Assembly (NCBI GenBank): GCA_012976225.1
Contig: JAAVVG010000043.1
Span: forward strand, 1 to 64,000
DNA from: Golubevia sp. BC0850
Lineage: Eukaryota; Basidiomycota; Exobasidiomycetes; Golubeviales; Golubeviaceae
Reading direction: 5' to 3'
DNA: 64,000 nt
In this document: one piece after another, positions 1-40,597 of the stretch
How the letters are laid out: each line of letters starts with the position of its first letter
Numbering within the stretch: position 1 is the stretch's first letter
Made by a program: the position numbers and the translations under genes
Notes under the pieces: model-generated
The model's input: the letters and a program-made list of their open reading frames with translations, nothing else
The model's database searches: none
What the model was told of the DNA's origin: nothing

Positions 1-817
1 GCGTCCTTGAATGGAATCAGCTGGCCTGGCCTCATCCTCAAGAAATCAACGCGTTTCCAGTCCATCGAAAAAAGCCCTTATAAGGAGGCGATCTTTTCGA
101 ACAAACATCCCATTCCACTCTGTCCTCTTTCCTTTTTCTGCTCCCTTTAGAGACCAAGACCAACCACTCAGAAGCCCCCACCATTCTCAGTGCTTCACAC
201 ACATAGCTCTAACCCCCGTTTACGGCTCTATTGCCGTCTACGTCTCCAACCTGAGTCTATAGAAAGGTGGATGGGATCTGCTTTGCCAATCTTTGTTTCT
301 CGAGGTAGGATCGAATCTTCGCTGTAGTCATGTCTTGAGGATGGGAACCGTCGATCACATACATCGAAGGAGAAGACGCTTGTTCTTGGGCCTCCCACGT
401 CTTTTTATTGAGTAAGTGCCGGAGATCTAGAAGAGTCTTGGTCTGTTTTTTGTTGACCAGCTGAAATCTCTGGTAATGTGAGCCACTTCGTCGCAGCCAC
501 GAAGTTTGCGAGCTCCGGTACTATGTATGGAAGGGAAGGATGATGCAAAGACTTCTTCGGAAGGGGAAAGAAGCTTCGTGAAAGTTTGAGTGATCCTCGC
601 ATGCCTCTCCCTTTGTCTTCCACCAGAGAAGTGATGATGACGATTCCTCCTTCGTTTCTCGCTCTAGTAAAACAAAAGCACTTTCCAGTCCTTGGGAAGT
701 GCGGAGAGCCTCGTGGGAAAGCTGCTGTGCGCTGGAGCTGCTCGCGTCGCGAAGACCGAAGGGAGGATTGAGATTCCTTCAACCAACTCACGCAACAGAT
801 TCAAGCTGAACAGGAGA
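1..817. other. Upstream intergenic region of pol32
   Basis: No gene is supported here. Open frames on both strands are short, unlike any family I know, and lack splice-linked continuation. The last stretch before 818 is presumably the promoter and leader of the Pol delta subunit gene. The 3' end of a gene lying further left could be present but is not visible. Confidence 0.4.
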
Positions 818-7138: not shown

Positions 7139-7807
7139 AGATTTGAAGGATCTCTGCTCGAATTCAAAACTTCAAGGTCACAATCGCCATTGCAAGGTTC
7201 AAGACTCAATTCCCGTTCACTATTTTCATTAGCAAGTCAGCTACTCTTCAAAATTTGTCTGCCTCTCATCCCAGGTCTCTCTCGCTGTCATTCAAGCTTT
7301 AAATTCTCAGCCATGCTTCAAATTCAATCTACTTTCAGTTAATGTTTCTCGTGCTCTATCTAACCACCCCTTTTGGGTCTTCTCTCATTTCCCATTCACT
7401 ACGAGTTGTGAAGCAAAACTTCATCAACTTTCAACACCCCCCCTCCTTTCTCCTACAGACTCTCAACCCTCACCTTCTTTTTTCCTTATGTCTCGTGTCT
7501 CGTGTCTCTTGCCAACCCCCCCCCCCCCGCGGTCACGAATTTGTTTTCCACAATACCCTTCTCTCGTTTTCCTAAGGTCTGGTACCTTCTCTCTCACTCT
7601 CATTCAGATTCAGCAATTCAACTCTCCCTATTTATCCATTGTATTTGCTCTTCTCTCTCTTCTTTTTGTAAGCCTCGATTCTGTTTGATGTTCTCCGGAG
7701 AGTTTCGAGTATGTTACAAGAGATTGAGTAGTCATCTTGAGAGCAGAAAATCCAACGCTTCTTGTAAATCGGGCTGGCTTTGATCACCATCTCTCGGCAA
7801 GATGTTC
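7139..7807. other. opy2 3' flank and diverged outer part of repeat arm
   Basis: No gene seen. From about 7607 the sequence resembles, with many differences, the reverse complement of about 25233-25440 (for example atccattgtatttg and gagagcagaaaatc are shared). It is thus a more diverged extension of the inverted-repeat arm that begins at 7808. A homopolymeric C run lies near 7517-7530. Confidence 0.5.
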
Positions 7808-9255
7808 CCATCCTTCTGAATGAGGGCATTTTTATAAGCTTATCAACGTCCTACAAAGTCCGAGACGTTGAAAACGAAGGCCTCGTTCGCAGATTGTCAA
7901 TCGAGGGCCACTTTGGCAACGTCGGTGGAATAGTCAAGCTTCACACAGATAAAGAAGAGATTACCACAAGCAAGAGCATGTATTCAAAAGAAAAAAGGGG
8001 GAAAAACGAAAAGAAAAAAGAAAGAAAATGAAAAAGAAGGGTGATCAAAAACCAACACGAACACCGTTCTCAGAGAGTCAACTCTGAGCGGATCGAGAAG
8101 GAAAAAAGGGGGGGGCACTTCGCCATCAGCATGTTCGTCCAAATGGGTGGGGTGAGGAGCGGTTTGATATGTTGATGCGAATGTGTCGAGCATCATTGAG
8201 AGCGGAATCGTCTAATCGAGACGGCGAGAGAAGCAGGGGCAAGAGAGAAGTAGGATGTCATCGCTTTTAAGTTGCGTAGAAGAAGAGACCAAATCTGTCG
8301 CACACTTCGATAGACTCGGTTAGACAAAGCGACCCAAGGTCGTTTTGTGCTAGTTGAATCTACACACTCAAAAGTACTTGAAAGTGTGGAGAGCTTTTGA
8401 CCTTTCTGCCTTTTGTGGGCTTGACTGGAGCACGCTGCTTTTTCGAGGTTCAAGCCAGCCCGGTCCAATCGCGTCGACCAAAACCAGGCCCAGCCTACCA
8501 AGATGTGTTTCAGAAGCAAACCGGCTTGGCCCGATGACTTACCTCAACTTTCGATTCTAGAACCTTCTGTCCTTTCCAGGATGCGATGCAGAATCAGCGA
8601 CGAACTCGTCGCCACTCGGTCTCGGGTCTCGCATCCACTGCTATCGCAACCGGTTCGAGGTGTACGAGTCCCTCAGATTTCACTCTTTCTATCCCGCTTC
8701 GATCAGCTTTAAAGAATCTCAAGATTCTTTGAGTAGTTGTACATCCAGGTAAGTGATACTACCATTGGCAGAAATCATAAGAGAATGAGGTGACATAAAT
8801 TTACTGTGACTCTTGGGTGGCAAAAGTATGGTCTCCAACAATTGGCAAGGAAGCTTCTTTTTCATGGCTTCAAACGGATCCCTCTCAGAGTATCCAGATT
8901 CATTGAATGGCTCTAGACCCTCTTCCTAAGATGGAAAAGGATCTAACAAGTGACTCGATCGTCGGTCATCGACCCCCGGGTATCTTTCTTCATCTCACTG
9001 GATTCTATGTGACGGAGATCGCGAGAAACTTCCAAGGCCTTTCGGTTTCATAGTCACCTTCTGCGTTGGTAACGATGAGGACCAGAAGCCGAGCAAATCC
9101 TTCATCTGCTCTCCATGGTTGAGTACTCAGGCCACCGAGGTCTCGTTATCGGTGACATTTTAAGCTGGGTCTTTCTTCAATGGTTCCCTATGTCTTGTTT
9201 TGTGAGATGATCTTGCTTAAACTTATCCTAATGTGATGTCTCTTGTTCCTTGATT
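7808..9255 (+). repeat. Inverted repeat, left arm (about 1.45 kb)
   Basis: Reads as the reverse complement of 23786-25232. Small frames inside it translate identically in both arms: a 108-aa frame at 8193-8519 on - against 24522-24848 on +, and a 69-aa frame at 8503-8712 on + against the matching frame near 24305-24538 on -. The stretch of about 7815-8700 looks base-identical where I compared it; 8700-9255 has roughly a dozen substitutions. The edges are sharp: shared sequence ends at tcttgttccttgatt (9255). No terminal TG..CA, target-site duplication or transposase frame is visible. A TATA-like ttttataag (near 7831) and a splice-donor-like CCAGGTAAGT (near 8746) occur in both arms, so a non-coding transcript is possible. 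Confidence 0.93.
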
Positions 9256-9754
9256 TCTACTTGCTGACTTTGACTCCCTGTTGTGAACATGACTTCGGTT
9301 TCTCAGCGTACTCTCACTCTTAAACATCAACCAATTTCTAGGTGACAAATATTGAGATTACCAAGAAAAATTGAGGTTCGTTGATGAAGGGGATTAGCAA
9401 CAGATGAAAAAGGAGAATAGAACGAAGAGAAAAACAAAGGGGGGGGATTTGAAACAGGGATTGGATACAGGAAAGCTGTCATGAAATGAGTTTGGAATGC
9501 GAGAAAAAGGGCAGGTTGAGAGAAAAGAGAAAAGACCAGGGAAGATGATAAACAAATAACTAAAAAGGGGGGGGGAAAGGAAAGCGAAAAATGAATCTTT
9601 GTTGAGGAGTCTTGGTCAAGATTTTGATGATTTCATAATTGAGGATGCAGTCGTCAAGAGTTCGTTTCAGGAAAAGAGAAGGCGATAGATTCTAGGGAAA
9701 GGGGAAAGGGGAAAGGAGAAAAGGAAGTCGATGACTTGCACGTTTGGAAAGTTT
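9256..9754. other. Intergenic, purine-rich byr4 3' flank
   Basis: No gene seen. The + strand is rich in A/G with several G runs (for example near 9439 and 9567), which on the byr4 strand would be pyrimidine tracts in the 3'UTR. Confidence 0.4.
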
Positions 9755-12700
9755 TTACCTGATGGCCTGTCTAGCTAACCTCTGCAACAAATAAAGAGAT
9801 TGCCTTTGTCTATTAATCATAAGTTGTTCCTGATTTGAATCTTCCTTAGATGCAGAAGTTTCTTTAGAAGTTTTTGTCTTGGAGGCTCTACTAGTCGGAG
9901 GTAAGAACCCTCTAACTTCTCTCCTATGTCTTTTTTCAGCTTCCAAACAATTCTTCTTCAATTCTTCATCTTCCATGACGATAAGATTTTGATGTTGCAG
10001 TTGTAATTGAAGTTCAACTTCCTCTTCTCCATCTTCTTCAGCATTGTCCTGAGCTACAGCATTTGGAGATCCCCCTTCCCAATCCACCGGAATGACAGAA
10101 GAAGTTCCAGTACTCGCTCTAGCTCGATTGATAGATCTTAGAGAACCAGTTTCTGTATCTTCTTCACCTCCGAATCCTGTTGCTGGACTACTAAATCTAG
10201 GTCTATTCATGACTTTATCTCTCCAAGATAAGTCACCTTTAACTGCTTCTGTTGAATCCAGCAAAGCTTTCTCTTTACCTTTTCCTTTGAGAGTTGCTCC
10301 CAAATCTTCCGGATCATCTAATTCCATCTGCTCAAATACGTCCGGCTCTTCAATCCTACCAGGTTTGGATAACCAAGTCATTTTGATAGGATCGAAAATC
10401 ATATCTCCAACTACTCTAGCTCCACCAACAGTTGAAGTTTGATTTGAAGTCGAAGTTGAAGGAGCTGTTTTCAAGCTTGAAGTACTCATAGGATGATTCG
10501 ATTTCTGACCCAAAGCACTTGATTTCCCCTTCGACCCTGAATTGAGACCGAAATTGACATTCGGATTTGCATGACTGGTTCCAAAAGCAGCTCTATTACT
10601 TGAAATAAGATTAGGAGCAGAAAGTGGTGAAATCAAAGCAGGTCTAGTACTTGAATTCAAAGAATTTTCGAAAACTCTAAGAGCAATCTCATTTCCTTCC
10701 CACTTTTGACGAATTGGATTCCATTTCATTTCAGCAGAACCACCACCGATACCTAAGCCTCCTAAACCCAAGGGAGAACTCGGATTAGAGCTTCCTAAGT
10801 TTTGAATCAACGTTGGTCTTCTACGATTCTTGGTCTTTCGAGAAGGTTTTGGAGATGAAGTTGAACTTTGAATTTGTGATGATGGAGCAGAGGATGATGA
10901 TTGATTTTGAGGTGAAGGCTAGAAAAGGATCGGAATAGTCGAAATGAGAAGGTTGAAATGGTCAGTAAGGTAGGCTCAGACCTTGCTGCTACTCGGACCT
11001 CAAAAGAGACTCACCTTCAAAGAATTAGGATTAACAGACCCTTTGACTTTAATAGTGTCATCACCTAATTTCTTCTCAAAATTCCCACTTCCAACCAAAG
11101 GACTAGCGTTTCTCCTCCAAAAAGGAGTTGCAGCATTCCCCGTTGAATAAGGAGTAGGAGAACTTCTAGCCGTACTTCCACTAGACCCAGTGACTGGTAG
11201 ATCATCAAATCCATCCAATTCATGACCATCACCATACTGTCTAGCTCTTTTTGGTCTTCTCATCAATCTGACAGCAGCATCTCTAGCAGCAGCAGCAGTA
11301 GCTGTAATAGCAGTATATGGAGAATTAGGTCTTCTAATCAATGCTGAAGAATTTTGTTCGCTAGAAGCTTGAGCACGTGCTAAAGAAGAAGCAGTTGGTA
11401 GAGTAAATCTCATCGGACCTGTTGGGGTACTAGGTCGAGCTGGAGGAAGAGTTATCGAATTTGGTGAAGTTGAGAGATTGAATCGATTCTTGATTGATTC
11501 TTGAGTTGGAACTTTGAATGAGGTTTGATGTAAAGATTCTGCACTTCCAGATTTTGGTAGGCTCGGAAGATTTCCAGAACCGATTGAGGAGGAAGTTATT
11601 GGAGGTTTGCTTGATCGATTAGATGTTGAAGAGGTTGAGTGTTTACTTTCATTTTCACCACTTAACATTGGTAAAGATCTTTTTCTAATCAAAGATCTTG
11701 GTCTAGAAAGAAGTGAATTGGAAGAAGGTTGATTTGTAAAATTTGATCCTCCTACTGCTGATGATGATGTGCCAACAGTGCTAGAATTAAAAGCATTCCC
11801 AGTAACTCTAGAAAAGAAGTTCAGATTCCCAACACTTTTCTCTCCTCTAAGATTTCTATCTCTTTGTTGTTGTTGTTGTTGTCTTGGACCAGTTCCAGGA
11901 AGATGACTATAAGCAGAAGGAGCTCTTGGAGGAGACGATTTTGCCATATTTGAACTTCCATTTGAACCAGAAGATAGATGATGTTGATGTTGAGTGGAAG
12001 AAAAAGCAGGTGAAGAGTTTGTGACTTTGAAAAGTGGAGGTTGAGGATTCGAAGTTGAGGTTGAAGGGGTTGGAAAGTTGGAAGAAGCTGAAACTTTTCT
12101 AGAAGCGTTATTTGAATTCCTAGTATTTGAAGTAGAAGTGGTCGTCCTACTTCTCGGTGCCCTGCCAACTTGTTGAATTACTCCCTGTTGAGCTTGAACC
12201 TTCCCTCTTCCAATTCCAGAAGTCGTAGTAGAATGACCTCTTTTAGAACCACCAGCTCCTATCGCCATTCCAGTATTTCTAACTTTGAAACTCAAACCAT
12301 TAGCTTTCAATCTATAAGGACTTAAATCCAAATCATCGGTGATAATCAATCCTTTACCAAAATCTTGATCTTCTTCAAGATCGAAATCCTTCCTGTTCTT
12401 CAAATTGGATCTCAAATCGTTTTGACTGATTCTAGGAGGTAATTGATGACCTTTAGATCTAGCATCTAACATAGCTTGTAATTTCTCTCTAGTATTAGAA
12501 TGATTCCCACCAACATTTGATAAAGTATCAGATTTCTTCTTGATCTTTCTTCTGTTTTTACTTATTAGATTTGAGAAATTCCCTTCATTTTCGTCATCGG
12601 CATTTGAATTTCCAGAGACATCGTCTTCCTCGTCCCCTCCTCTTTCCAAATCTCCCTCTCTTTCATCTTCAGCAGGACCAAAAACACTTTCAGGAAACAC

Positions 12701-13972
12701 TAAACCTTCTAAAAGATCCTCACCTTCATCTTCTTTAGATTCCTCATCTTCAACTTCAGAGGTCGAATTGCTGGTAGCTTTGCCTCTATTGATTCTTCTT
12801 CTCTGATTTTCAGATCTAACTTCAGGAGAAGAAGAAAGACTTCCACCACCACTAGACGGTCCACTTAATTCATTCCATAAAATCCTTTCCTTCTCTAAAG
12901 TGGAAATGGAATTCCGTTTCCTAATTTCAGTAGGTGATAAATGAAGTCTTAACAATTGAGGAGACAATTCGAAATCGTTTTCCATTTCGATTTGTTCTAA
13001 TCCTTTCTCTGAATTCTGATGAATGTTCATTGGATTGGTTCGGTTTTGAGAAAGTGAAGAGGGAGAAAGTCTAGAAATTGAGGTAAACTTAGAAGGAGTT
13101 TTAGGCATGGAATTAGGTCTCGAAGAAGGATTTGAAGAACTAACGTCAGAAGATGAAGAAATCTTTCCCTTTTGATTTGAGGAAGAAGTTTGTTTTCTAT
13201 TCCTTAATTCAGGAGAAGGACTATCAGTAGTCCAATCTGTAGAAGTGTAATTTCGGGTCGTACTAAGATAAGGATTCCCACCTCCAACACTAGCGCTACT
13301 TTTACTTTGATGAGATTCTTCTGAAAAGGAATTACTATTCCTATTATTTAAATCTCCCTTTCCTCCAGATTCATCATCATCACTAAGGTCATCCAATTCT
13401 AATTCACTAGTAAAAGATCTGGGTCCATCCAAAGTAGAAGCTACTTCCACCCCTCCTCTCCGCTGGTCTTTGGACAAATGATCTGGGATTTCTAAATCCT
13501 CATCCCAATCTCCGCCCCCATTAATATCAACTCTTTCATTGATGTTAGGTCTACTATTCAATTGAGTTATAGTTCCAGTAAAGACACTTTGACCTTCAGA
13601 TCTAGTAGTTTTGGAAGCTTCTCTTAAAGATTCTAAAGTTTTATCAGCCAGAGAGGATAATTTGATTGTATCCACTTGCTCTTGATCTTCTTCTTGTGAA
13701 TCTTTATCCCAATCTAATTCATCATGATCATCATATTCAAGTCTCACCTTTGATCCTCCACTCTCAATCTCTTCTCTTGCCTCCAAATCAGCATCGATCT
13801 CATCATCATCTTCATCGAAATCTCTCAATTGATTCTCAAGTTCTTGATCCGAATCTTCTTGAGGATGATTGAGTTTGGATTGAGGATGAGATGGATCTGG
13901 CTCTGAAGGATCATCTCGGAAATCGAAATCTCCATCGTTCCAATCTTCTGTTACTGAGAGGTTCGTGTTCAT
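9755..13972 (-). CDS. byr4: Byr4/Bfa1-like mitotic-exit GAP scaffold
   Basis: Two exons, complement(join(9755..10918,11015..13972)), 1373 aa. Byr4/Bfa1 is the spindle-pole scaffold that pairs with the Cdc16/Bub2 TBC protein to form the GAP for the Spg1/Tem1 GTPase and so restrain septation and mitotic exit. The sequence shows the family's signature blocks. Near the N-terminus are paired acidic/aromatic motifs (EDWNDGDFDF, then GDWDEDLEIPD around residue 160) and a GTITQL element between them. In the second exon are IRQKWEGNEIALRVFE and GDMIFDPIKMTWL, followed by the C-terminal EAEKRHRRE block. The long centre is Ser/Asn-rich and disordered. Family assignment rests on these short blocks because overall conservation in Byr4 is low. 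Its partners are not in the window. Confidence 0.78.
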
Positions 13973-15306
13973 GACTGGTGATTGAGGATTGGATTTGAGA
14001 AAGAACGCGATTCCTTATTCAAGATGAAGAGAGGAGGAGAGGATGGGGATGTGTAGCTTCGAGGTCCGAGGGGTCGTTAGATGGGTGCGAGTGCTGAGAG
14101 AAGAGATTCTTGATGCTCTTCTCTTGAGAGATTTGGCAAGTTTGAGGTTTGAACTTAAGAAGTGAAGACCAGCAACATCTTGATCAGAAGCAAGTTGACT
14201 CGACTCTCGAAATAAAGTTGGATGGCAGCTTCACTGTGATCCACGTCAAGGACATAGGTGATGGATAAGCCGAGCCTCGGTCTTCTAGCCATTCACACAT
14301 CGTCTTAATCTCGACGAAATGTAAAGATATGGGACGGTATTGTTTCAATTCAAAGATCTCTTCCAAAGAAGAACAAAGGGTGAAGCGGCGAGGAGGAGCA
14401 AGGCATTCTCATTCTCACTCGCCTGTGTCCACCTACCCGCATTGATGACTCCTCCTTCCACTTTCAAGACCCCTCCTTTGGAGAAGAAGTCTCGATTGGT
14501 ATGACTTAGGTGCTTAACGAACCGAGAGCTCGGCAATCAAAACTCTATGAATCGCACCTTGCTACCTGGAAGGAGCTGCGTTGTCTTCCAGTCAAAGCAT
14601 TTTCCAACGACACTGGCTACTTCTTTTTTTTCTTTTTTTTTTTGTTGGCCATCCTGTTTTTTGAAAGTGATTAAAATTGAATCTTCATCATCGGAATGCC
14701 ATACGAACCTTTCTGTGCTCTCTACCTCTCTTCTCGTGGGGGCGACGAGGGGTGATACGGGAGCAGACAGCGGGTTCAAAAAAGGGAAGAGAGAGAGAAA
14801 GAGTCACACAGAAAATTGACTTGAATCTCGACACTCTCCACCACCTCAAGATCAACAAAAGTACGTATCTTCATTTTCTTATTCAAGCCTCATCCGATAC
14901 GGAGGTTCACCTCAAGATCATTGCTGGACAGAACGAAGGGCGAAGGAGGGTGGGGGGGATGAGAATTTTCAGCAGAGGAAGAAATCTTCTCAAACTCATG
15001 AAATCGAGAGAGCGCTCCTCGAATAGAGCTGGGACGCTACCTCAATCTTTCTAGAACTGCTGTAGCTGGAATTTGGGGACATATGGAAGCGTCAAATGAT
15101 GGAGGAATCGGAGGATGGGTGGATTCGAGGTTCTGCTGCAGGAAGGAAGGAAGGTCATGCTGTCCCTCTAAATATCAACTGCTACTCGCAATTGAATCAC
15201 TCCAATTCAATGAGGATACATCGTCAAATTCAATTGCAAATCCATTAACCGAACCCGCAACTTCAGAAGACTGACCCCCACCACCTCCCCTCCTCTCTAC
15301 CACAGG
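13973..15306. promoter_or_regulatory. Divergent byr4 / rpl13 upstream region with probable rpl13 5'UTR intron
   Basis: The two genes diverge across this 1.3 kb. A perfect GTACGT donor at 14861 and the acceptor ccacag ending at 15305, one base before the rpl13 ATG, suggest a 445-nt 5'UTR intron, the common arrangement for ribosomal protein genes. A T-rich tract lies near 14623-14645. Small open frames at 14.2-15.1 kb are unlike any protein family and were not called. Confidence 0.5.
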
Positions 15307-16700
15307 ATGGGTTTCCGCCACAACAACGTTCTCCACAACAACCATTTCCGTAAGGATTGGCAACGTCGTGTCAAAGTTTGGTTTGATCAACCAGGATCAA
15401 AGACTCGTAGACGTAATGCTCGTTCAGCCAAGGCCACAGCCCTAGGACTCAAACCTCTACAATCTCTACGTCCAGCTGTCAGATGTCCAACCATCAAATA
15501 CAACACTAAAGTTCGTGCTGGAAAAGGTTTCACTCCAACTGAACTTAAAGCTGCTGGAATTCCAAAGTTGGAAGCTAAGGCTATTGGAATCCCAGTCGAT
15601 CATAGGAGAAAGAACAGATCTGAAGAAAGTTTGAAGATCAATGTTGAGAGAGTCAAGGCTTATAGGGAAAGACTTGTTGTTATGCCAAGACGCAATAAGA
15701 AAAACAAAGGAAAGGTTCGTATAAAGCGGGATGGGGATCGAGAGTTGGATGGGCGGGATTCGGGGTTTTGGGTTTCGAGTCGGGAGGGACATGGTGATAA
15801 AAGTTTGTCGTGATCTCTCAACTTCTTTGAAAGTAAGAGCAAATCCTTACAATACCAAGTCCAGAATCATCCAACCATGGCTCCTTGAAAGAATCATCAA
15901 CCTTAACTTCCACTCAGGCGCTCCCAAGATTCAAGTCAGCTAACAGGACCGCCTTCTGACTCTCCTATCTCTCCTATCCCCCATTCAATTCTCTCAGGTT
16001 CCAAACCTTGCCAATGTCGACACCACTCGTGATGTTACCTCTGCCTTCCCTCTACCAGCTGGTGTCGCCGCCGAGGCTCCTCGTGCCATTACCTCCGAAG
16101 AGAAGGAAGCCCAGGCTTTCAGAACTCTACGTGTTTCCCGTGCCGACCACAGGAACGCTGGTACCAGAAAGGCTCGTCAACAAAAGGTGAGTTGGAGATG
16201 TAGATAGAGAATAGGTGGATTTGAGAGAAGCATTGGAGGGAGAGGTTGGAAAGGTTAGGAGGCTGCGGACAGGAAAGACGGTGGAAGAACAGGATCAGAA
16301 CAGAAGGAAAGCATTCTAGAAGACCAGCAGTTGGGAGTAAATTTGTTGGTGAGACGAGATGTCCAAGAAGTTAAGCTGAAAGAGAGCCCATGCGTGAGAC
16401 ATCAGAGCTATACAGTTAGCTGGTCCGTGGACAGACCATGAAGAGATAATGTGATAGAACAGAACTCAGTGCACGTCAGGACAACCCAGAAGGGCAGTGG
16501 CGAGAGAAAGGATTCGTCTGCCTGCGATGGAAGCTTTCTCGATTTCCAGAGGACACCATGCTCTGTTCCTGAGGACCACACTCCGACTTCTCAAGATCGC
16601 GCATCACTGACAAGCTTCTCTTTTTTCCTATTCTTCTCTTTTCACTCCTCTTGTTTTCCGAGGACAGAAGGACGAAGAAGCTGCCAACGCCAAGAAGTAA
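15307..16700 (+). CDS. rpl13: 60S ribosomal protein eL13 (RPL13)
   Basis: Component of the cytosolic large ribosomal subunit. Exons join(15307..15714,15998..16186,16668..16700), 209 aa, the usual eL13 length. The first exon carries the diagnostic LHNNHFRKDWQRRVKVWFDQ opening, RRNARSAKA, VRAGKGFTPTELKAAGI and IGIPVDHRRKNRSEES. The second exon holds the AFRTLRVSRADHRNAGTR segment, and the last exon is only 11 codons including the stop. Intron 1 (283 nt) and intron 2 (481 nt) are much longer than most introns in this window, which leaves room for an intron-encoded small RNA. I saw no convincing C/D or H/ACA boxes. Confidence 0.97.
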
Positions 16701-17668
16701 ACAACTCTCCCGACTATTTTCTTCCAGCATCCTTGAAATTTCTATTCTCCCCTCTTTCCTTTCTCAATTGTTCTTTATTCTCGCTGTTTCTTCAAGCCTG
16801 TTTCATTATTCTCCTTCCTTGGTTCACTTTGACGATCGTGTCAAAAAAGGATCCAACCAAACCAAAACTCACAAATCCCATGTTTTCTTCTCGCAAGTCT
16901 TTTAGCTCTCTTTTTTTCCCTTGCGAAAAGAGTATAAACATTTAATCATCAATTTAAAATTGACTTTCTCTCCCTTGCAACTTCATGTTCATTCATCGAT
17001 CCAATCACTTCACTCACCCAAAACAAACATTATGAGATGTATGCTTTTTTACAAACCAACAAAATCACAAACATCCCTTGGCTTCAACCTGTGATGGACT
17101 GACTGAGTTTTGTCTATTTGGTAGGTTGTCGTGATGGAAATTTGGAGAGAGGTTCAGGACGAGAGTAGACATCGAACAGGAGAGGACAAAGAGCTGGGGA
17201 CTGGCAGCAAATTTGAAATTGAGACGTGAACATAATTCCAGCAGATTTACTTCTTCTTGGTCGCCAACTAGATCAGGAAGCGACTGGAAGTCCGACCTGG
17301 AGCAGTGGAGAAGAGAGGAGTATGGGGTTTGGACGTTGTCAGAAGCAAGAATCTCAGCCCGCGAAACAACATCAGCACAAAGGTACCTAGATTCTGAAGG
17401 CTTAAAGCTTTCGATATTCTTTCTAGAACTCTGAAGTTTTTGGCTCCCAAGTGGGATCTTTGAAAATTGAGTCATAGGCTTCACGAGATTTCACTTTGAC
17501 CTTCTCCAATCTCTGTAGAAGGTGTCGCCAACACGCTGACGAAGCACTCAATCAAAAGAGCGAGAACAATGTAGTTTATGAATGCTGAATATTAGTACAA
17601 AGATTGGAAATGCAGGACACACGATAGCTTTCTCCCACCCTCACCCCACTCGATTGACCTCTATTTAT
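16701..17668. other. Convergent 3' intergenic region
   Basis: Lies between the 3' ends of rpl13 (+) and rdh54 (-). It is T/C-rich just after rpl13, consistent with 3'UTR and polyadenylation sequence. No credible gene, RNA or repeat is seen. Confidence 0.4.
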
Positions 17669-20600
17669 CTATCTCCCTCCCACCAGCAGCTTTCTTCGTT
17701 CCATCTCCTCGTCTGAATCGTCGTCCAAATTCTCACTTTCAGGCTTCCCTTTACCCTTTCCATTCACATTTTCTCTCTTCTCACACTCATTCTTCTTAGC
17801 CTCCTGCAGTTGATTGGCACTCTTAGTGTAAACGTAGAGAACCGATCCTGGATCCATTGCAGAGATGTTGAAAGTTGCGGTCCCCTGAGGATCTTGATCT
17901 GACTGAGACGAAGAGTCTTCCTCTTTGTCGTCTTCATCTTCATCAGAGTCGATTGGAGGTGAAGAAGAGTTACGAGCTCGTTTCTTTGAGGGCTTTTTTC
18001 CGACTTGAGTTTCCTTCTCGTTCCTTTCAGGGGTGGAAGCAGGATCCGAATCGATGATCTCCTTCTTGATGTGTAGATTGGCTTGATCGAGCTGTTCCAA
18101 AAGACTTGGTCTCTTCTTCTCCGGAACCCTCTGTTCCATCTCTGCATTCAAGTTTGCTCCGCTCTCAGGACCTGGAAGAAGAGAATCATCGCTTTCGAGA
18201 TTTGGATGGAGTAGAGCAGCGCCTTTGGATGGGGAAGAAACTTGAGACTGGGACTGAGTTGAGATGATGCGAGGTGGAGCTTGGGTAGCGACGATTGCTT
18301 GAAGAATCGGATCATCGAGTTCATCAGAAGCTGAAGGCTTGGTGCAGTCCAAATGAGACCAGTCGAAGAGAGCGACGAGTTTGGCTCTCTTGTCACGAGC
18401 GTTCTGCAAAAGCAAAAGGAGTCAAGGCAAATTTCCGATCAGTCTTTCAAGGATTCATTGAAGAAGGTCGAAAGACTTGAGGCTCATCGGAAGCACTTAC
18501 TTTCTGAGCTTGAGTAACGTTGTGTTGACTAGCATGCTGAAATCCAACTTCTTGACTCGATTCATCATCGTTGTCGTCTTCTCTGACAGCCCTGTTCCCG
18601 CTCTTGCGAGCATCGTCCAGCTTGCCAGTACCACCACAAGAGCAGCATAGATGATCGTGAGAGAGACATTTGGTGTCTTCGTGTAGACGGAAGATATCGC
18701 GTAGCTGAAGTGAGGGAAAGTTAAAAGAGGTTTATTAGGTGATGAAGGATCAAATTCAGAAGGAAGACCTCCGAACTCACCTCCTCGGCACTGAAAGAGT
18801 CTGAGGACTTGGAAGAAGCAGCATTCGAATCCTGGGAAGAGAAGAGAAGAAAAAGAAGTCGAGAAACGGTCAGAGACATTGAGAGCATGCAAATCTCGGA
18901 TCGACGTAGATGAAATTCACCATCAAAGAATCACTCAGCCCCATCTTACTGATCTGTCTCTGAAAGATCTTCTCGTCCATAGTTCCAGCGATGAGAAGTC
19001 TGTAGATGTAGCAAGTCTTCTTCTGGCCATCTCTATGAATTCTAGCCATGACTTGAAGGTCAGTTGCTGGATTCCAGTCCGAGTCGAAGAGTACGAGACG
19101 GTTGGCTCCGATCAAGTTTAGACCAACTCCACCTGACTTGGCCGATAGGAGAAAGACGACTGAAAAGAAGAAGTGGGGCGAGGGGAAGGTGTCAGCAACA
19201 AGTCTAGCACAGCTGACATCTTGACAGGTTGGTGGGGAACTCACAAGAAGACGTGACACTCGATTTGTTGCTGATTCGAATGGAACGGGGATGAAACGTT
19301 TTAGTGATTAGTGATTGAGAAACTAGACAGTTAGTAGAAGAAAACAGAAACTCACAAGGTGTTGACGATGTCCATTCTATCAGCTTCTTTCGTCTTTCCG
19401 TCGAGACGAACGAAACTATAACGAGACTTCCTGCAAGCTCCTTCTATGATGTCTAAAGTTGCTGTGAAGTTCTGAGATTCAAGAATCAAGGAAGATGAGA
19501 ACAAAAGAAAAGATCAGCGTTGAGAGCAAGCAAAGACCATCAAGTCCTGTCAGACAACTTACAGAGCACACCACAACTTTGTCTTGAGTAGTCTCTCTGG
19601 TCTTGCGGAGGATGCTCATGAGAGTCATCATCTTACCTGTGAGAGGAATTGAACATGAGGGTGTCAAAAGTCTGTGGGAAATTATCGTGAATTGAAGAGA
19701 AGCCAAGGAGAACTTACCACTTAGACTAGGATCGCAAGCGACTCGATTCTTAGGATAAGCCTTCAAAACATCTCCTAACATAGCCTTTCCAACTGAATCT
19801 TCTGCTCCAGGTTTATTTTTCTCTTCCACAGTCCTAAGCAGAAGCTCCGGAGAATTACAAAGCTTTCTCAAATGACCAATCAAGACCAAAGGATTACTTG
19901 AGACTCCATTTAAGACTTGTCTCATCAGACCTGAACCTAGAATGTGCTTGTAAATGTCGATTTGAAGGACAGTCGGAGAGCAGAATACCACGAACTCTAG
20001 CTTTGGAAGAAGATAAGCTGAAAGAAGATCGGCAGTACGACGTAGAATGATTTGATTCGTAATCTTGGCTAGCTGTTGAGTCCTAGCTTCTCCAGTCTCT
20101 CTGACTTCTCTACGAGAATTTTGCATTCTAGACTTGACGATCGGGTCTTCAAACACTTTCTTGAAGGTAGGATAATCCCCAATTAAACCTGGATTGACGA
20201 AATCGATCTGAGATTGAAGAAGGGAACAAAGGTCAGAGACTACTGAAGGAATCAAAGGAGAATAAAACATGAATCTACACTCACCATAGCATAGAACTCC
20301 GAAAGATCGTTCTGGAGAGATGGTGTTGGGATCAAACTGGCAAGTTAGAGAAGAAGCTTTTGAGAGAACCAAAATTCCGACTCACCTGAATAGGAGTTCC
20401 TGACAGAATGATTCTTCTCCTCGTTGTCAATTCATCGAACATCTTCGTAGTCTTAGCATCTTTGGATTTCAACCTATGACCTTCGTCGCAGACTATCAAG
20501 CCAATAGGCGGTTGGACTCCTTTCAGAACTGAGATACAAGTTCTTAGCTTCTCGTAACCAATAATCAGAACTTGGTAGGTTTTCGATCTGACGAAAGATT

Positions 20601-23176
20601 CAATCTTCTGTTGCCCTGAAGAATCGATTGCTAAGACGTTGATCGAGTTGTTACTGAGCAACAATAGGGGAGGGGAGAGTAGCAACAGTCAGCTTGAAAT
20701 CACGATGTATGCTTCAGAGGTCAGAGCCAAAGCTCACCCGATCCATTTTCTGAATTCACGTTTCCAATTCTGGTGGTTGGGAAACAGAATTGAGAAGGAA
20801 GAGAAGTTGAGGCGAGATGTTCAGCGACAAATCCGACGCTTCGAAGTCCCGAGTTGAACTCGTTTCAGCTCACCTTGACAAGCGAGAGCGGACATACGAT
20901 AAGAACTCTATCGATGGTAGCAGAAGCAGGAGTGTAGTAGCAGCTTTGACCTGTCAGGGAGATGCCATGGCATGGTAATGAGGAAGATATGAGATCAACA
21001 TCTTGAATGAAAAAGACGAAGGGAAGAGGGGCAGGACTTACGAAGAAGCATGGAACACAAAGCAATGGTTTGTAAGGTTCTGAAATAGAGCGAGAAAGGA
21101 TGAAGGGAAAGCCCAAAGGAAGAGCTAGTCAGATTTCAAAGACTAGAGAACTGAACACTTCTCGTTTGATGCCTCTTCGAGAGCTCCCAGGAACTCACTT
21201 CCCAAGTCCCATCTCGTCCGCCAAAATGCAACCTTGATAGCTTTGATCAGTATGTCTCATTCCCATTACTGTTTCATAAAGGAACTTGACTCCTGTAACT
21301 TGATGAGGACGGAGATGAGCTGACAAGGATGGGTCCAAGACCACATCTACGATCGGATAGCCTCTGGAGAAAGGAAGAAAGAAAAAAACAGAGAAAAGAA
21401 GAATATGATTGAAATCAGCTGTGAGTCTATCGCGGAACTTGAAGAAGATACCAGTAAGCCTTAAGTAGAGGACACAAACCTACGATTGTAAAGCTTTTGG
21501 TGAGCACCATCCGGGCGTACCATGACGACAGCTCCAGGAGCATCGGCTGGGAATCTATTGAAGTCGAGTGAGCAACAAGAGCAGGTAAGAATCGTTGTGT
21601 GCGTCAGTACTGCTGAAGGTCGAGTCAGCAAAAGCATCGAAGGGAGCTCCACACTCACCGAGAGTGAGCCGTGACACCCATACCGGGATTCGTCAATCCT
21701 AGTTTCGGTTTGGTAGGAGACAAGAAGATAGCGGGGTTGGACTTGGAAGAGAAGTCTTTCTTGGCTTTGAGGGTGAGAAGATGGGGGAACAGCAAGAGAG
21801 AAGACAAGGTCAAAGACTGAACCGCCGAACAAACTCTTTCCCGAAAGAAGAGGCATCAAGAGTGTCGAGAAGCGCATAGTGAGCCGTATCCATCCCCAAG
21901 GTCTATCACTCACCATAGAAATTATTCGTAGAAACCCCTCCACCCTTCTCCTTCTCTTTCTTGATCTTCACCTCTCCATCTCCATCTGACTCATGACTAC
22001 TAACGGTCGGTAGAGAATCAGATCTGGCATTTGATTTTCCAATCACAGCCTTATTTCCTATCCAAGAGCTCTTTGTTCTAGATTGGTTGATTTGAAGTGT
22101 AGTCGGAACCTTAGTAGGAGGTTTGAAAGCAGCCGATACAGGTCTTGATGGGATTGGAGCTTTGGCACGTAAGATTGGAATAGCAGAAGTAAGTGGAGAG
22201 CCATTCAGGTAGTCTTCTTTAGAGATTTCGCGTTCGATCTGAGAAGAGAGTGGGAGGGGGAAAGAGTTCAGATTGTATGCGTGAGGATAGGGAGGAAGGA
22301 TAATGATCTAGATCGCAGATGACGCTGAGAACTTACCTCGATCTGAGATCACAAACAAAGTGAAAATTGAGACAGCAGTGGGAGAGGGGAAGTAACTGTC
22401 AGAGGGTGGAAGGGATTCTTGAAAGAAGGAGGACCAACTCACCTCTTTCCCGCCGACTGAAAGCTCATCCTCAGGTTTGAGATGCCCCTGACCGAACTTG
22501 GCTCCAGTAACCAGACTGCCATACCAATCAAAGAGAAGAAGCCCAAAGGTCAGGACGACTGAGCCCTTCCTCACCCGCACCTAACATCCTCCCAAGAGCC
22601 CTTTCTTACTCACTCTTTGCAAGTTTCAGCGCACTTCAACGAACACGTCGACCCACTAACAGAGACTATGAGAACAGCATCCCCATCCCAAGTCTTGTGT
22701 TTTCTAGCTTGAGGCTTTCTATACTGACAAAGGTAGTAAGCTTCTCCATTGCCACCACTAGCAGGTGAACCACCTGGGTTTGAAGCAGAAAGCTGCTTGG
22801 GATGTAAAGCAGTGGAAGGAGAAGCAGCAGATCTGTCGTTCTGTTGTAAGTCGTTGGAAGTGTAGGAAGGTTTCCTTTGACTTGAGTTTGAATTGATCTT
22901 TGAAGTTGAAGGATTTGAATTGGAATCAGTTTTAGCCATCTTGTTGGATTGATACCCAACTTCCCAGTCTTCTCCCTCTTTACCTGCTCCCAAATCATCA
23001 TCTAAGTCTTCATCGTGATCATCTTTGAAGTTGGATCGAGGATTTGACCTTTTGAGGGGAATTGAAGAGGTGGATCTGGATCTGGAAGGAGTGGAATTGG
23101 AAGAGTTTGCTCCTCTAGAACCTCCAACAACTGAAGGAGATTGGAACTTGGATTTGAGTTTTGTTATAGCATCCAT
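17669..23176 (-). CDS. rdh54: Rdh54/RAD54B-type SNF2 DNA translocase
   Basis: Swi2/Snf2 ATPase of homologous recombination that works with Rad51/Dmc1. The spliced model has 20 exons and 1229 aa, all phases closing: complement(join(17669..18403,18501..18704,18781..18831,18921..19159,19245..19270,19356..19471,19563..19636,19718..20207,20285..20311,20386..20653,20738..20769,20874..20950,21042..21079,21199..21363,21480..21554,21659..21764,21914..22238,22337..22342,22443..22515,22614..23176)). The subfamily motif [20 protein letters not shown] lies near residue 155. It is followed by [14 protein letters not shown], the Walker [15 protein letters not shown] (split by an intron), the DEGH box, the [17 protein letters not shown] segment, and helicase C motifs [20 protein letters not shown] and [10 protein letters not shown]. 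The post-helicase [19 protein letters not shown] matches RAD54B rather than Rad54. The 6-nt exon 22337-22342 is discussed separately. Head and tail are disordered. Confidence 0.92.
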
Positions 23177-23785
23177 CTTGATTCAGAATAGAATTATAAT
23201 GAATCAAAGGATTTGGTCGAGAATGAAGGAGGCCTTTCCTTTTTCTCTCCTCGAGACGCGAAGGAGGTTCGCGATTCTTCATCTCGTGAAGAACCTCTCT
23301 TGAAACAAGATCCCCTAAGAGCCGCAAATAAAGATTGAAATCGCGATTAGCAGTCTTGTAATCCGACGCTCAGCTGCAAGACTCTTTCCACCAGTCATTC
23401 TAAGACAAGCTCTCCTCTTCAAGCTTCCAGCTTCGTCCGCGATGAATTGAGCTCAAATCTAACGACCTCAGCGTCAAAAGTCAATAGTCAATTCTGAGGC
23501 CGATTGGTAACTTAGGTTATCTGCTGAACACTTCGAAGTTCACCGCGGAAGTCTTATCCTTTTGACGGCCAACAGCGAATGGTTCCACGTCATCACTATG
23601 TTTCTTTCATCCTCTGGGTTCCGTGACGATTGCTCTTTCAGATTTCACTAATAAGAACAAGTAGAAACACGGTCAAGGAAGTCAGACATACCACCTTCAC
23701 ACCGCAAGAAGGATAAGAAAAGACAGGCAAAGGAAGCTCAAGGATAGTGGCTCGCACTGCGAACCTTTAAAGGTCGAAAGAAAAG
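23177..23785. promoter_or_regulatory. rdh54 upstream region
   Basis: Holds the presumptive promoter of rdh54, read toward lower coordinates. The right arm of the inverted repeat begins abruptly at 23786. No coding sequence is supported. Confidence 0.4.
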
Positions 23786-25232
23786 AATCAAGGAACAAGA
23801 GACATCACATTAGGATAAGTTTAAGCAAGATCATCTCACAAAACAAGACATAGGGAACCATTGAAGAAAGACCCAGCTTAAAATGTCACCGATAACGAGA
23901 CCGCGGTGGCCTGAGTACTCAACCATGGAGAGCAGATGAAGGATTTGCTCGGCTTCTGGTCCTCATCGTTACCAACGCAGAAGGTGATCATGAAACCGAA
24001 AGGCCTTGGAAGTTTCTCGCGATCTCCGTCACATAGAATCCAGTGAGATGAAGAAAGATACCCGGGGGTCGATGACCGACGATCGAGTCATTTGTTAGAT
24101 CCTTTTCCATCTTAGGAAGAGGGTCTAGAGCCATTCAATGAATCTGGATACTCTGAGAGGGATCCGTTTGAAGCCATGAAAGAGAAGCTTCCTTGCCAAT
24201 TGTTGGAGACCATACTTTTGCCACCCAAGAGTCACAGTAAATTTATGTCACCTCATTCTCTTCTGATTTCTGCCAATGGGAGTATCACTTACCTGGATGT
24301 ACAACTACTCAAATAATCTCGAGATTCTTGAAAGTTGATCGAAGCGGGATAGAAAGAGTGAAATCTGAGGGACTCGTACACCTCGAACCGGTTGCGATAG
24401 CAGTGGATGCGAGACCCGAGACCGAGTGGCGACGAGTTCGTCGCTGATTCTGCATCGCATCCTGGAAAGGACAGAAGGTTCTAGAATCGAAAGTTGAGGT
24501 AAGTCATCGGGCCAAGCCGGTTTGCTTCTGAAACACATCTTGGTAGGCTGGGCCTGGTTTTGGTCGACGCGATTGGACCGGGCTGGCTTGAACCTCGAAA
24601 AAGCAGCGTGCTCCAGTCAAGCCCACAAAAGGCAGAAAGGTCAAAAGCTCTCCACACTTTCAAGTACTTTTGAGTGTGTAGATTCAACTAGCACAAAACG
24701 ACCTTGGGTCGCTTTGTCTAACCGAGTCTATCGAAGTGTGCGACAGATTTGGTCTCTTCTTCTACGCAACTTAAAAGCGATGACATCCTACTTCTCTCTT
24801 GCCCCTGCTTCTCTCGCCGTCTCGATTAGACGATTCCGCTCTCAATGATGCTCGACACATTCGCATCAACATATCAAACCGCTCCTCACCCCACCCATTT
24901 GGACGAACATGCTGATGGCGAAGTGCCCCCCCCTTTTTTCCTTCTCGATCCGCTCAGAGTTGACTCTCTGAGAACGGTGTTCGTGTTGGTTTTTGATCAC
25001 CCTTCTTTTTCATTTTCTTTCTTTTTTCTTTTCGTTTTTCCCCCTTTTTTCTTTTGAATACATGCTCTTGCTTGTGGTAATCTCTTCTTTATCTGTGTGA
25101 AGCTTGACTATTCCACCGACGTTGCCAAAGTGGCCCTCGATTGACAATCTGCGAACGAGGCCTTCGTTTTCAACGTCTCGGACTTTGTAGGACGTTGATA
25201 AGCTTATAAAAATGCCCTCATTCAGAAGGATG
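23786..25232 (-). repeat. Inverted repeat, right arm (about 1.45 kb)
   Basis: Reverse-complement copy of 7808-9255. The arms face each other across 14.5 kb containing byr4, rpl13 and rdh54. The substitutions I could align lie in the part nearest rdh54 (23786-24345) and at the opposite outer edge; the middle appears identical. Beyond 25232 similarity continues for roughly 200 bp at clearly lower identity. The same TATA-like and GTAAGT signals are kept. No transposase, integrase or terminal-repeat structure is visible, so its origin is unknown. Confidence 0.93.
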
Positions 25233-25719
25233 GAAAGATCTTGAGGAGAGATGGTGGTCAAAGCTCAATTCACAAAGAGTGCGTTAGATTTTCTGCTCTC
25301 AAAATGACCACTCAATCTGTGGTAACGTACTCGGACATTTCCGAAGAACATTAAACAATCGAGGTTTACAAACTGAAGGAAAAGAAGATCAAATACAATG
25401 GATGAATAAGGAAAGTTGAAATGCTTTGAGGCTGAAGGGCTATACGAAGGAAGCCTGGGAGGAAAGGAGAGAAAGCTGGAAAATGAGCCCATCTCCAAAA
25501 GACGAAGGAAAAGCTTGATCAAAGTTGATCAAGAAGTAGATAGGAAATAGAGAATTCGACGATTGATCTGAGTTGAGTGATAGATACAAAAAGGTCGAAA
25601 CTTCGAGCCAGCTCCAGAGAAAGTCTCAATCTCTCAATCTGCAGCTGTGGAACTCTGCCTCAGCATCACAAGACCACCAATAAGCCAATTCATCCTTACA
25701 AGTTCAACTTTTGCCAAAG
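25233..25719. promoter_or_regulatory. Diverged repeat extension and ubc8 upstream region
   Basis: The first 200 bp or so are the diverged continuation of the inverted-repeat arm. The remainder directly precedes ubc8 and should hold its promoter and leader. No other gene is seen. Confidence 0.45.
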
Positions 25720-26969: not shown

Positions 26970-27750
26970 AGAACATTAGCTTCTACTTCACTTGTTTCTT
27001 TCAAAAACTCAACTTAATCTTTAAGATGTCTCGTAAATTTCTGACTCTCAAGTCTCTTTCATCAAAGCCAAGTCCTTCAAACGTCAAATCTCAAACTCAA
27101 AGTCACCAAACTCTTTCTCTCAATGAATTCCCCTCCTTTCAGAAGATCTACGCTCACTACTTTCGATCTTCAAGAACAATGCATTGCAAAAAACTCGACC
27201 TAGCAAAAAAAACCCACTTATCATGTTGTCATCTTCTCATCAAGATTCTTCCCCTTTCTCTCGTCAAACGCTTTCAAAGATTCTATTTTCTCCCTTTCTT
27301 CAAACTCTTCTCCGACTTTTTTCTGATCTTAATCTATTCTCTTATCTTTTATAATGTAATTGATCTTTCGTCCTCCTCCTCCTCTCCTCTCCTCTCCTCT
27401 CCTCTCCTCTCCTCTCCTCTCCTCTCCTCTCGTCTCCTCTTCTCTTTCTTTCTCACTTTTTGACCTCTTTCTGTCCATTCCGAACTTTTCCCCCCTCTCA
27501 CTAATGAATCCATGAATCTTTCTGACTCTTTTCTGCTTCTTTTCTTCTTTTTTGTAATTCTTGTCTCTTTTTCTCTCAATAGCAATTAATCGTCTTTCAC
27601 AATACGAAGAGCCATAATAGTGACCTTGTCAAATCAAACAAAGAGAGAGTAACCCTTTCAAGGTGTTGTTCAGACAATTCTTCAGAAGCAGCGAAGAAGG
27701 GTTTCAAAACAGAACTCCATAAAAATACAACATCAAAAAACCCTGAAGCC
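26970..27750. other. Convergent 3' region with CTCTC satellite
   Basis: Lies between the 3' ends of ubc8 (+) and ctu1 (-). It is strongly pyrimidine-rich on + and includes the short satellite listed separately. Open frames here are compositional and not called. Confidence 0.45.
27372..27435 (+). repeat. CTCTC pentanucleotide microsatellite
   Basis: Roughly a dozen tandem units of a CTCTC pentamer, with an imperfect end, in the ubc8/ctu1 convergent intergenic region. Probably non-functional and length-polymorphic. Confidence 0.9.
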
Positions 27751-36331: not shown

Positions 36332-39300
36332 CTACCTTCTACATATAAAACCTTTAGACCTCCAGTAAGAAATCCACATCTTGACGTCCAACTTCCTAGC
36401 TTCTCTCAAACTCTTGCTCGCCTTCTCTGAGAAGGTTGTGTTCAATCTTCTGACACTCATGGCTTCTTTCGATCCATTCGAATATCCGGTGTCGCTCTCT
36501 GAGACATTTTGAAAGAAGCTGAGAAGCTTTCGGGCTGGCATGATTTCGAGAGGAACGCTTGAGGCCTCAAGCTTCTCTAGCCACGTTGAGTAAGGGACCA
36601 AAGGGACCTTAAGCTCATCGGATAGAGTGGAAGAGATGAATTTCCAGGTTGTAGGATTTGGATGGGCGATGTGAAAAGTTTGATGAGGCGAAAGAGAAGT
36701 GGGAGGAGTGACTTCTCCGTCTAGTTTTGAGAAGCCAAAGTCTAGAATGGCAGAAGCAACGTCTTCAGAGCTGATCCAAGTGACGATGACTTCCTCATTC
36801 GGGAAATTGGGTAGGCAGCCAAGATGCTGAGCTGAGTTGACCATCGCTGGAAACCAATCCGACGTACTCCAAGATCCATTCGACGATCCAGAGATCTGAT
36901 CTATTCTGACAGCGCAAGACTCCAGCCCCGCCTGAGAAGCGTTGACTGTTAGAGGCCAGAAAATGGGTCAGCTCTTGTAGTCCAAAAGCCTCGAAAACCA
37001 AATCGACTCACCTAGAATCCGCTCGGTCACGGCCTTTGATTCTCCATATCCTCCCCCAACTGAAACCTCCAATCGATCCAAGAAGTCTTCTTCTGGAACT
37101 GGCTTTCCTTCTTCGTTGAAACCTCCCACAGCAGCTATTGAGCTTGTGAAAATGAACTTCGGAGGATTGATTTTGGGAGAGTTAAGGGCGAGATCGACGA
37201 GATTCCTTGAACCCCTGATGTGCTCTTCGAAGCTTCCTAGGGACAGATTGAAATCCAGCCTCCAAGCGCTGTGGATGATGAGAGTGGTCGAATCTCTAAG
37301 TTCAGAATAGAGAGTCTCGTTCAATCCAAGTTGATCTTGATCCAAATTGGTTTCGACTAGTTGTAGCTTCCTTGAAGCAAGGAGAGTTGCTTTTAAGCCT
37401 TTGTCCTCAAAAGCTTCCCTTTGACGGATTTCTAGCGACTTAGAGGATGATGGTCTATTGAGAGCAAAGACTTGAGAGACAGATGGATTCCGCAGAAGGT
37501 GAGATAGAAGAATCGTTCCGAGGGATCCAGTGCTTCCAGTGAGAAGTACCACTTCGCCTTTAGGCTTCTGCGTAACAGCGATGATTCGGGAAGGAAAGGT
37601 GTAAGAGTACTTCTGAACCATCGCCTCCATAGCTTTGATGTGTTGAGTTGTGTCAGAGACTGAAGAAGCATCTGTTCCTTCGATGACCTTGAAGAAAGCC
37701 GAAGACAAACTGGCGATGGTTGGAAAGTTGAAGACTATCTCTGGCTCTAGACACTTTCCAGGGATAGACCTGGACAGTATTGTTCTGATTCTGTTCGCCC
37801 GTAGACTGTTGCATCCAGTAGCAAAGAAGTCTTGATGCTGATTTATTGAGCTTTCGAGTGCGACTTCGACAGTGTTGGCGACGAATGAAAAGGCTGCGTT
37901 AAAAGAAGGAAGGAAGCGAAGGTGAGGGGTCTACTTCGCCTTCTAATGAAGCGAAAAGCACTCACCATTTTCTTCATCCCATACAGAGGGAATCACCACT
38001 TGACATTCCATTATTTCATCTGCGGATCGATAAATTTCTTCGATTTCTTCTGAATAAGACTTGAGGATGGCTCCACCTCTAATAGATCCCTTGGCTGTAT
38101 AGGTGAATGGCTTTGAAGGTGATGCTACGATGATCATGTTCTTGCTGAGAGCGCTGTGAACAGGAGCAAGTTGATTGGCTGTGGAATGCAAGGAAGTTAA
38201 GGGAGGATCGGCGAAGGGTAGAGACGAGTTAGGTGAGAATCAAGCTCAGTTCATGGGAGCACAAGGAGGACTAACCTTTCTCAACAGTTGCCCAGATGGC
38301 TTCTCTGAACTCAGACACACATTCAATTTTTGTGCCTTTTGATGGTTCAATTAAGACGCCAGCTTGATGCTTTTGTCGACCGAAGTACAAAGCGGCAGAG
38401 ATCATTGGATCTGTAGCCAGGATACCCTGCAGAGGTCCAGGATTGGTCTTCTCGCCTGTCGAGTCTGAATACGAAAGAAGAAAAAAGACAAGCAAGAGTG
38501 TAAGGGAGGAAATGAGAAGGTAGCCTGATGTGATTGATTTGCAGCTTCCTGTTTCCACCTTCCTCTTCACTCCTGACTCCTCTCGATTCGACTTCCTATT
38601 CTTTGATGTGAAATCCTACTCACGTATGATCTGGTCGTCTAGGCGCCCAACTACCTTAACATAAATGTTCCCGCCTCTTTCCACCTTCTCAACTAAATCG
38701 CTTGTAGCGTACACTTTCTCGCCTTCATGAACATCATTAAAGACATTCGGAGAATAGTGAGAAGTGGAAGCGATCAGCATTTCGTACTGATCGGAATCAG
38801 ATTGCGATCGAAAGAGCATCCGGATTTGAGGATTTGGCTGGAAATGGAACTTCAGAGGATCGGACGAAGCAGAAGAAGTGACCGGATATTTTGACATTAT
38901 TCCACATTCTGTGCTCCCAAGGGCGCTGATCAGTTGAATTCCTTGTTCATCTCGAAGATTGGAGGCAATTTGAGGACAAAGAGGGCCACCTGAACTAATG
39001 CATCTCATCTTCTTGAGCTGCTTCTCTGCACCTCCTGTTTCGCTCCAAGCCTGGTAGAATGCTGGGACGGCGAGTAAGAACGTCGATTCCAGCTGAATTG
39101 CTTCCGATAAGGTTGACTCTGGGGTAGGAGGCTTATAAAGGAGACAAGAAGAGGGGACGTTAGGAGGAGAATCAGTGGCACGAGATGGGAAGGATGTGCT
39201 TACCTTTGGAGTGCGAGGATCTCTCAAGCCCAACGTCGATCCTCCACCTAGAGAAGAAAGCAATCCCCACTGTATACACATAGCGTGGGAGCTGGGTAGT

Positions 39301-40203: not shown

Positions 40204-40597
40204 TATTGAGGAGCGTCGAAGGTTGAACCAAAGAGAACAGGTATGAGAAAGCGGAAGAGAGAGAAAAAGTCAGAGATCGAAGACTCCCTCTTAATGACCT
40301 CCACCCATAGAAGGATTGGTAATATAACCACTATCTCAGATCACTCGATCTGGCATTTAATCAAACTACTATCTTCACCTCACGATAAACAAACCACCAC
40401 GCGTCATGTAGCGTGCAAAAAAGTAACCGACAACGGCCGCACTAAAAATACAAATCTACACGCCGTTCGTTTCACACAGAAAAAGTCGTTTTCAATTAGT
40501 TGTTGTGCAGTATTCTTTCACAGAGGTATTTGAATCTCCAAAACAGAAACATTCTCTTATCCTCCCAATCTTCTAAGTAATCTTGACTGGGAATGAG
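40204..40597. promoter_or_regulatory. Reductase upstream region
   Basis: Presumptive promoter of the adenylate-forming reductase, read toward lower coordinates. No obvious TATA box or recognisable cluster-regulator site stands out, and no gene is seen. Confidence 0.4.

Follow-up and report, generated by a model that had tools for sequence, protein, structure and literature searches.

A real inverted pair of repeat arms brackets a gene-bearing segment in the window, which is the whole stretch of 64,000 nt analysed here from contig JAAVVG010000043.1 of Golubevia sp. BC0850 (below, C37). The arms can be read with moderate confidence as decayed members, probably non-coding, of a low-copy repeat family seen on three contigs, which may together form one small chromosome, with the pair having been homogenised by ectopic gene conversion and inversion of the 14.5 kb between the arms being possible. 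The original prediction is partly supported, being right in outline, too reliant on a perfect plateau of identity and made without a view of the three-contig family.

The inverted arms and the segment between them

The two arms (Table 1) were 96.9% identical across 1646 columns by blastn, extending the pair originally placed at 7808-9255 and 23786-25232, with a repeat search of the window returning an ungapped part (7777-9255 and 23786-25264; 1479 nt, 99% complementary, spacer of 14530 nt) and, further out, two pieces (77 and 69 nt) that match at 84%. Base-by-base alignment gave a stepped profile, with ~80% identity in the outer 165 nt, an identical run of 898 nt and 98% identity across 8706-9255. 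The run lies close to the identical middle expected at about 7815-8700, the 11 differences counted in the inner part are in keeping with the dozen or so noticed by eye in 555 nt, and the outer 200 bp or so were indeed more diverged, with each of the four 50-nt windows across 7601-7800 at 71-84%. Between 7784 and 7807 the arms differ at five sites, neighbouring differences from 8706 to the end of homology are all no more than 118 nt apart, and at 9251-9300 identity is at chance level (34%). A run of at least 898 nt arose in none of 20000 shuffles with uniformly placed differences (52 in 1644 nt and likewise 16 in 1479 nt), a test that ignores assembly collapse. The step from 80% to 98% identity is the robust part of this profile. 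As first argued, the pair is not a plain assembly duplicate, having differing flanks and diverged ends.

Of the genes named between the arms, rpl13 was recovered by Pfam and rdh54 stands as a SNF2/RAD54-like gene, with further exons recognised by eye on the minus strand within 17669-23176, but the label byr4 found no backing, neither of its two long frames having a Pfam match. No ATG frame of at least 100 aa overlaps the arms, so inversion of the 14.5 kb need not break a gene. Intact genes such as those in the Saccharomyces flip/flop repeats (see below) were not found in the arms, a short or many-exon gene still being possible, and a bacterial-code scan of the window returned no tRNA genes. 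Arrays with 10-bp periodicity occur at 43978-44282 and 27340-27499 of the window. Multi-exon genes on the minus strand at 36335-40269 of the window and at C20:189560-193435, NRPS- or carboxylic-acid-reductase-like by eye, are 45-63% identical in matched minus-strand frames.

Table 1. Features of the inverted pair, of the repeat family and of the intervening segment in the window.
Feature	Position	Strand	Remarks
Left arm	7612-9255	+	block A reads on the plus strand and points inward
Right arm	23786-25425	-	reverse complement of left arm
Outer unhomogenised end, left arm	7612-7776	+	partner ~25265-25425; 84% in ungapped pieces
Core identical in both arms	7808-8705 (898 nt)	+	exact identity may be partly assembly collapse
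Inner arm part	8706-9255	+	11 differences between arms
Family block A, left arm	7814-8408	+	76-85% to C24 and C20 copies
Family block A, right arm	24633-25227	-	sequence match
Anchor word, left arm	8052-8072	+	exact
Anchor word, right arm	24969-24989	-	exact
Pre-A fragment, left arm	9125-9255	+	homologous to the block preceding A in C24 copies (79-80%); breaks at 9255
Pre-A fragment, right arm	23739-23916	-	81%; 47 nt longer than left-arm fragment
Block B of another family copy	1-301	-	cut by left end of contig; 96% to C20 from 235171
Inter-arm segment	9256-23785 (14.5 kb)		rpl13, SNF2/RAD54-like gene, two long minus-strand frames
rpl13	15307-15813	+	Pfam Ribosomal_L13e, E 1e-62
SNF2/RAD54-like gene	frame 19482-20270	-	SNF2-related domain; best solved-structure match RAD54-like
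Two long frames (putative byr4 of the original prediction)	9755-10729, 11000-13972	-	no Pfam match

A low-copy family on three contigs

Searched against the whole genome, the left arm matched only the two arms themselves and pieces on two other contigs (at least 11 matches), with queries from loci on C20, C24 and C37 finding family members on these three of the 64 contigs only, copy counts being lower bounds as the search scores only its best candidates. Together the three contigs hold 507,964 of the 25,771,031 assembled bases. The remaining genome matches of one query fell in its pre-arm part, a neighbouring HSP70 gene (the first tested frame being HSP70, the rest by eye). This HSP70 gene lies directly beside the right C20 arm (C20:232500-233870), with similar sequence at C20:103845 (90%) and C16:250041 (74%), while the left C20 arm adjoins a Mpp10 gene (Pfam). 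A genome-wide dispersed repeat with one profile everywhere, which the original prediction had named as the finding that would count against it, is not what was seen, the three pairs having different profiles.

Block A is present in six copies that form three inverted pairs, one each on C20, C24 and C37; were orientation random, all three pairs would be inverted with a probability of 1 in 8. A search for a 21-letter anchor word from block A, tolerating up to two mismatches, gave six places in the genome (C24:85870, C24:122030, C20:177790, C20:234449, C37:8052 and C37:24989), all exact and three on each strand, with no further place at one or two mismatches and a single occurrence of the backward control word. 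The window arms are 14.5 kb apart; between anchors the distance is ~36 kb on C24 and 57 kb on C20. In the orientation in which A reads forward, the family order is pre-A, A, B, C. The window arms consist of A, followed by a stretch peculiar to these arms and by a pre-A fragment. If conversion took place, the right arm more probably served as template, since its family homology extends 47 nt beyond that of the left. Parts of other copies are present at the left end of C37 (1-301) and at the right ends of C24 and C37.

Ten frames from the family, three of them from the left arm of the window, gave no Pfam family above the cut-off and three weak sub-threshold names. Among the matches listed, those between copies fall in all three frames of the tested strand, and copies differ by 1-nt indels. 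On these observations block A and the blocks beside it were rejected as coding sequence; block A is not evidently coding and, judged by its sequence, the arms are probably non-coding. Nor was there support for a structured RNA, with no Rfam match over the gathering score in 7400-25600 and an unfavourable covariation term for block A (+2.84; 14 of 96 pairs with a double change, from only four distinct lineages). Block A carries purine-rich tracts.

A gene start, here called X, lies at the right end of C24 as an open frame of 137 aa from C24:190132 that runs off the contig, such that only its first 137 residues are assembled. A decayed X lies at C24:87187-87549 (35% identity, three stops, protein E 1e-5), and a piece of X in C20 was matched at E 0.29 by protein search and, by DNA search, at E 2e-7 (66 nt, 79%). 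The region upstream of X is 79-84% alike among copies, while past its first 65 nt the X frame differs much more (34% alike in protein to the C24 relic), a pattern that could reflect fast coding evolution or exchange between different members. By protein the start of X otherwise gave only chance-level matches in its own genome, on C28 (E 0.07) and C5 (E 0.24), with no Pfam family above the cut-off and one chance-level match among solved structures (E 0.57). A viral origin was considered and rejected, none of 13 peptide-pattern matches in viral contigs being confirmed. No transposition protein was found in the family relics or in the start of X, the body of X being absent from the assembly.

Contig ends bear on how the three contigs are linked. 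C24 and C20 begin with a sequence (longest 118 nt) found in 17 of the 23 matches of a genome search, 9 of these 17 beginning no more than 230 nt from a contig start, one ending at the last base of C61 and seven lying on the minus strand; the other six of the 23 match a neighbouring stretch. Such telomere-associated sequence stands at many contig ends (e.g. C24:1-118 and C20:21-111), adjoined on C24 by a frame resembling, by eye, a LINE RNase H. C37 opens with 111 nt that recur exactly within C20, on the opposite strand, and closes with 111 nt identical to C24:189976-190086, such that C37 is entered from the C20 tail and left into the C24 tail. The telomere-type ends and the exact overlaps of 111 nt at contig ends suggest as the simplest layout a chromosome of ~0.51 Mb, running telomere, C24, R, C37, R, C20 reversed, telomere, where R is a collapsed repeat.

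Proposed homogenisation, assembly and rival explanations

Between loci block A is 76-85% alike. Within loci the C20 pair was 97.3% identical over 994 columns and then 84% over 224 across a deletion, and the C24 pair was 80-88% alike by segment, with 92-100% per 50 nt in the first 300 nt of segment 1 and 33-96% elsewhere, the final 6-nt window excepted. The block containing this C24 patch is only 79-82% alike to the copy in the window. In a tree of block A from the six copies of this one genome, the two window arms are sisters at 100/100 and the two C20 arms likewise (100/100), though parts of their flanks are 16-20% diverged, with the right C24 copy grouping with the window arms at 81/85. As block A of the two C24 copies does not form a sister pair, homogenisation is not general across pairs. 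The identity of the arms is not explained by constraint, because 8425-9100, though part of the homogenised tract, is matched elsewhere only over 66 nt (8471-8536) and block A itself varies between loci. Copying between inverted partners would explain it, with ectopic gene conversion fitting best on the pattern in this one assembly. The originally proposed old duplication with later homogenisation agrees with outer ends that are ~20% diverged, as are copies at other loci, around a core at 98-100%.

The perfect plateau on which the original prediction leaned fared less well. The C24 contig has ten N at 78674-78683, the only N run in the scanned loci L001-L034, with an identical 111-nt stretch on each side marking an unmerged k-mer overlap, and the exact 111-nt repeats here and at both ends of C37 suggest a de Bruijn assembly with k=111. 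As such a build may have merged isolated differences, 100% identity cannot serve as evidence, and it is quite possible, if a little short of probable, that the 898-nt core is an assembly effect in a repeat diverged by ~2%, leaving a single step from 80% to ~98%. The arm differences spaced no more than 118 nt apart from 8706 onward agree with this, as do simulations in which uniform divergence gave a core of at least 898 nt with P 0.95 at 1.08%, 0.81 at 1.5%, 0.56 at 2% and 0.17 at 3%, although these assume that every isolated difference was hidden by the assembly. The C24 assembly, however, passes through a perfect direct repeat of 3314 bp, so that longer-range data may have been used. That repeat (C24:94937-98250 and 102364-105677) is itself either a recent duplication or an assembly effect; it carries a gene resembling, by eye, a sterol demethylase, its one Pfam-tested frame being without a match. 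The assembled orientation of the 14.5 kb rests on resolving the 898-nt identical stretch.

Under the preferred reading of decayed family copies homogenised by conversion, the family would descend from a multi-copy unit carrying X, with contigs breaking where copies of that unit share identical stretches. Repair templated by the inverted partner would keep stretches of a pair alike and an occasional crossover between the arms would invert the 14.5 kb. Direct pairs flanking essential genes would, through deletion, tend to be lethal or to disappear, such that inverted pairs survive. Alternatively, though this is unlikely, one arm may have been duplicated fairly recently, in inverted orientation, onto a site that held an old family copy, with no conversion thereafter. 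Such an event would account for the high core identity and the abrupt edges, the homology of the left arm ending sharply at 9255, but homology at ~80% continues past the outer edge on both arms and the C20 layout is similar. This outer homology means that an old copy already stood on either side, such that the change was one of replacement. A more serious rival, though on balance doubtful, takes the family as relics of a transposable element confined by chance to this part of the genome, in keeping with its multiple, decayed and variously deleted copies, its purine-rich tracts and the identical stretches that copies share at contig breaks. Yet neither the ten family frames nor the start of X has a Pfam family above the cut-off, no Rfam match passes the gathering score, no relative in viral contigs was confirmed, and DNA searches, as a lower bound, place members on three of the 64 contigs only.

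Inverted repeats flank some yeast centromeres, and the pairs, at ~86-330 kb of the proposed 0.51 Mb chromosome, might be pericentromeric or centromeric repeats of one chromosome; this is very unlikely, the intervals being gene-rich with core genes (L13, HSP70, Mpp10) and no family member having been found on other contigs. Equally improbable is a reading of X as a multi-copy gene that evolves fast, may be selfish and is restricted to a single small chromosome, where its dead inverted copies would act as inversion switches (of ~14.5, 36 and 57 kb), reshuffling gene order and suppressing recombination on that chromosome only; on that account direct pairs would remove essential genes, leaving the dead copies to survive in inverted pairs. 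The geometry is also like that of the Hansenula polymorpha mating-type switch (PMC4238957), but a switching cassette that recombination between the arms would flip is scarcely credible here, as STE3 matches lie only on C62 and Homeobox_KN matches on C61 and C4; a mating-type locus was rejected, with no STE3 or homeodomain match on the window contig.

Comparison with known systems

The likenesses drawn here to the Saccharomyces flip/flop region and to wtf genes are ones of behaviour, with no claim of membership. The closest known case in the literature searched appears to be the flip/flop region of Saccharomyces chromosome XIV, though a closer precedent may exist in print. For that region gene conversion with an occasional crossover inverting the segment was proposed, and independent long-read assemblies were compared, as assembly errors might falsely raise the similarity of arms (PMC9731477). 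In both cases inverted repeats homogenised within the genome bracket ordinary genes, but the Saccharomyces repeats carry intact sporulation genes and both orientations occur among strains (PMC9731477), whereas here the arms look non-coding, there is one assembly and the flip is putative. In keeping with its caution on assembly errors, the window shows how k-mer assembly can create or exaggerate an identity plateau in repeat arms.

X recalls the Centroid gene family (PMC9731477), likewise a multi-copy gene that diverges fast, underlies repeats, has few recognisable relatives, if any, and is non-randomly located. Centroid genes are centromere-linked on several chromosomes (PMC9731477), whereas the family here lies on three contigs, and the likeness carries no claim of homology. 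Likewise, the wtf drivers of fission yeast are concentrated on the smallest chromosome of that species, and the family includes pseudogenes and bears signs of ectopic gene conversion (PMC5478263). Unlike these meiotic drivers, the family described here gave no sign of drive or of a wtf-like protein, X being known by its first 137 residues. The mating-type inversion of Hansenula polymorpha shares an inverted segment between two loci that can flip there (PMC4238957), but differs in that the window contig has no STE3 or homeodomain match. If confirmed, the pair in the window would give the Saccharomyces flip/flop region a counterpart in another fungus, and the three inverted pairs of the family, being homogenised to differing degrees, would allow the balance of conversion, decay and inversion to be compared between pairs.
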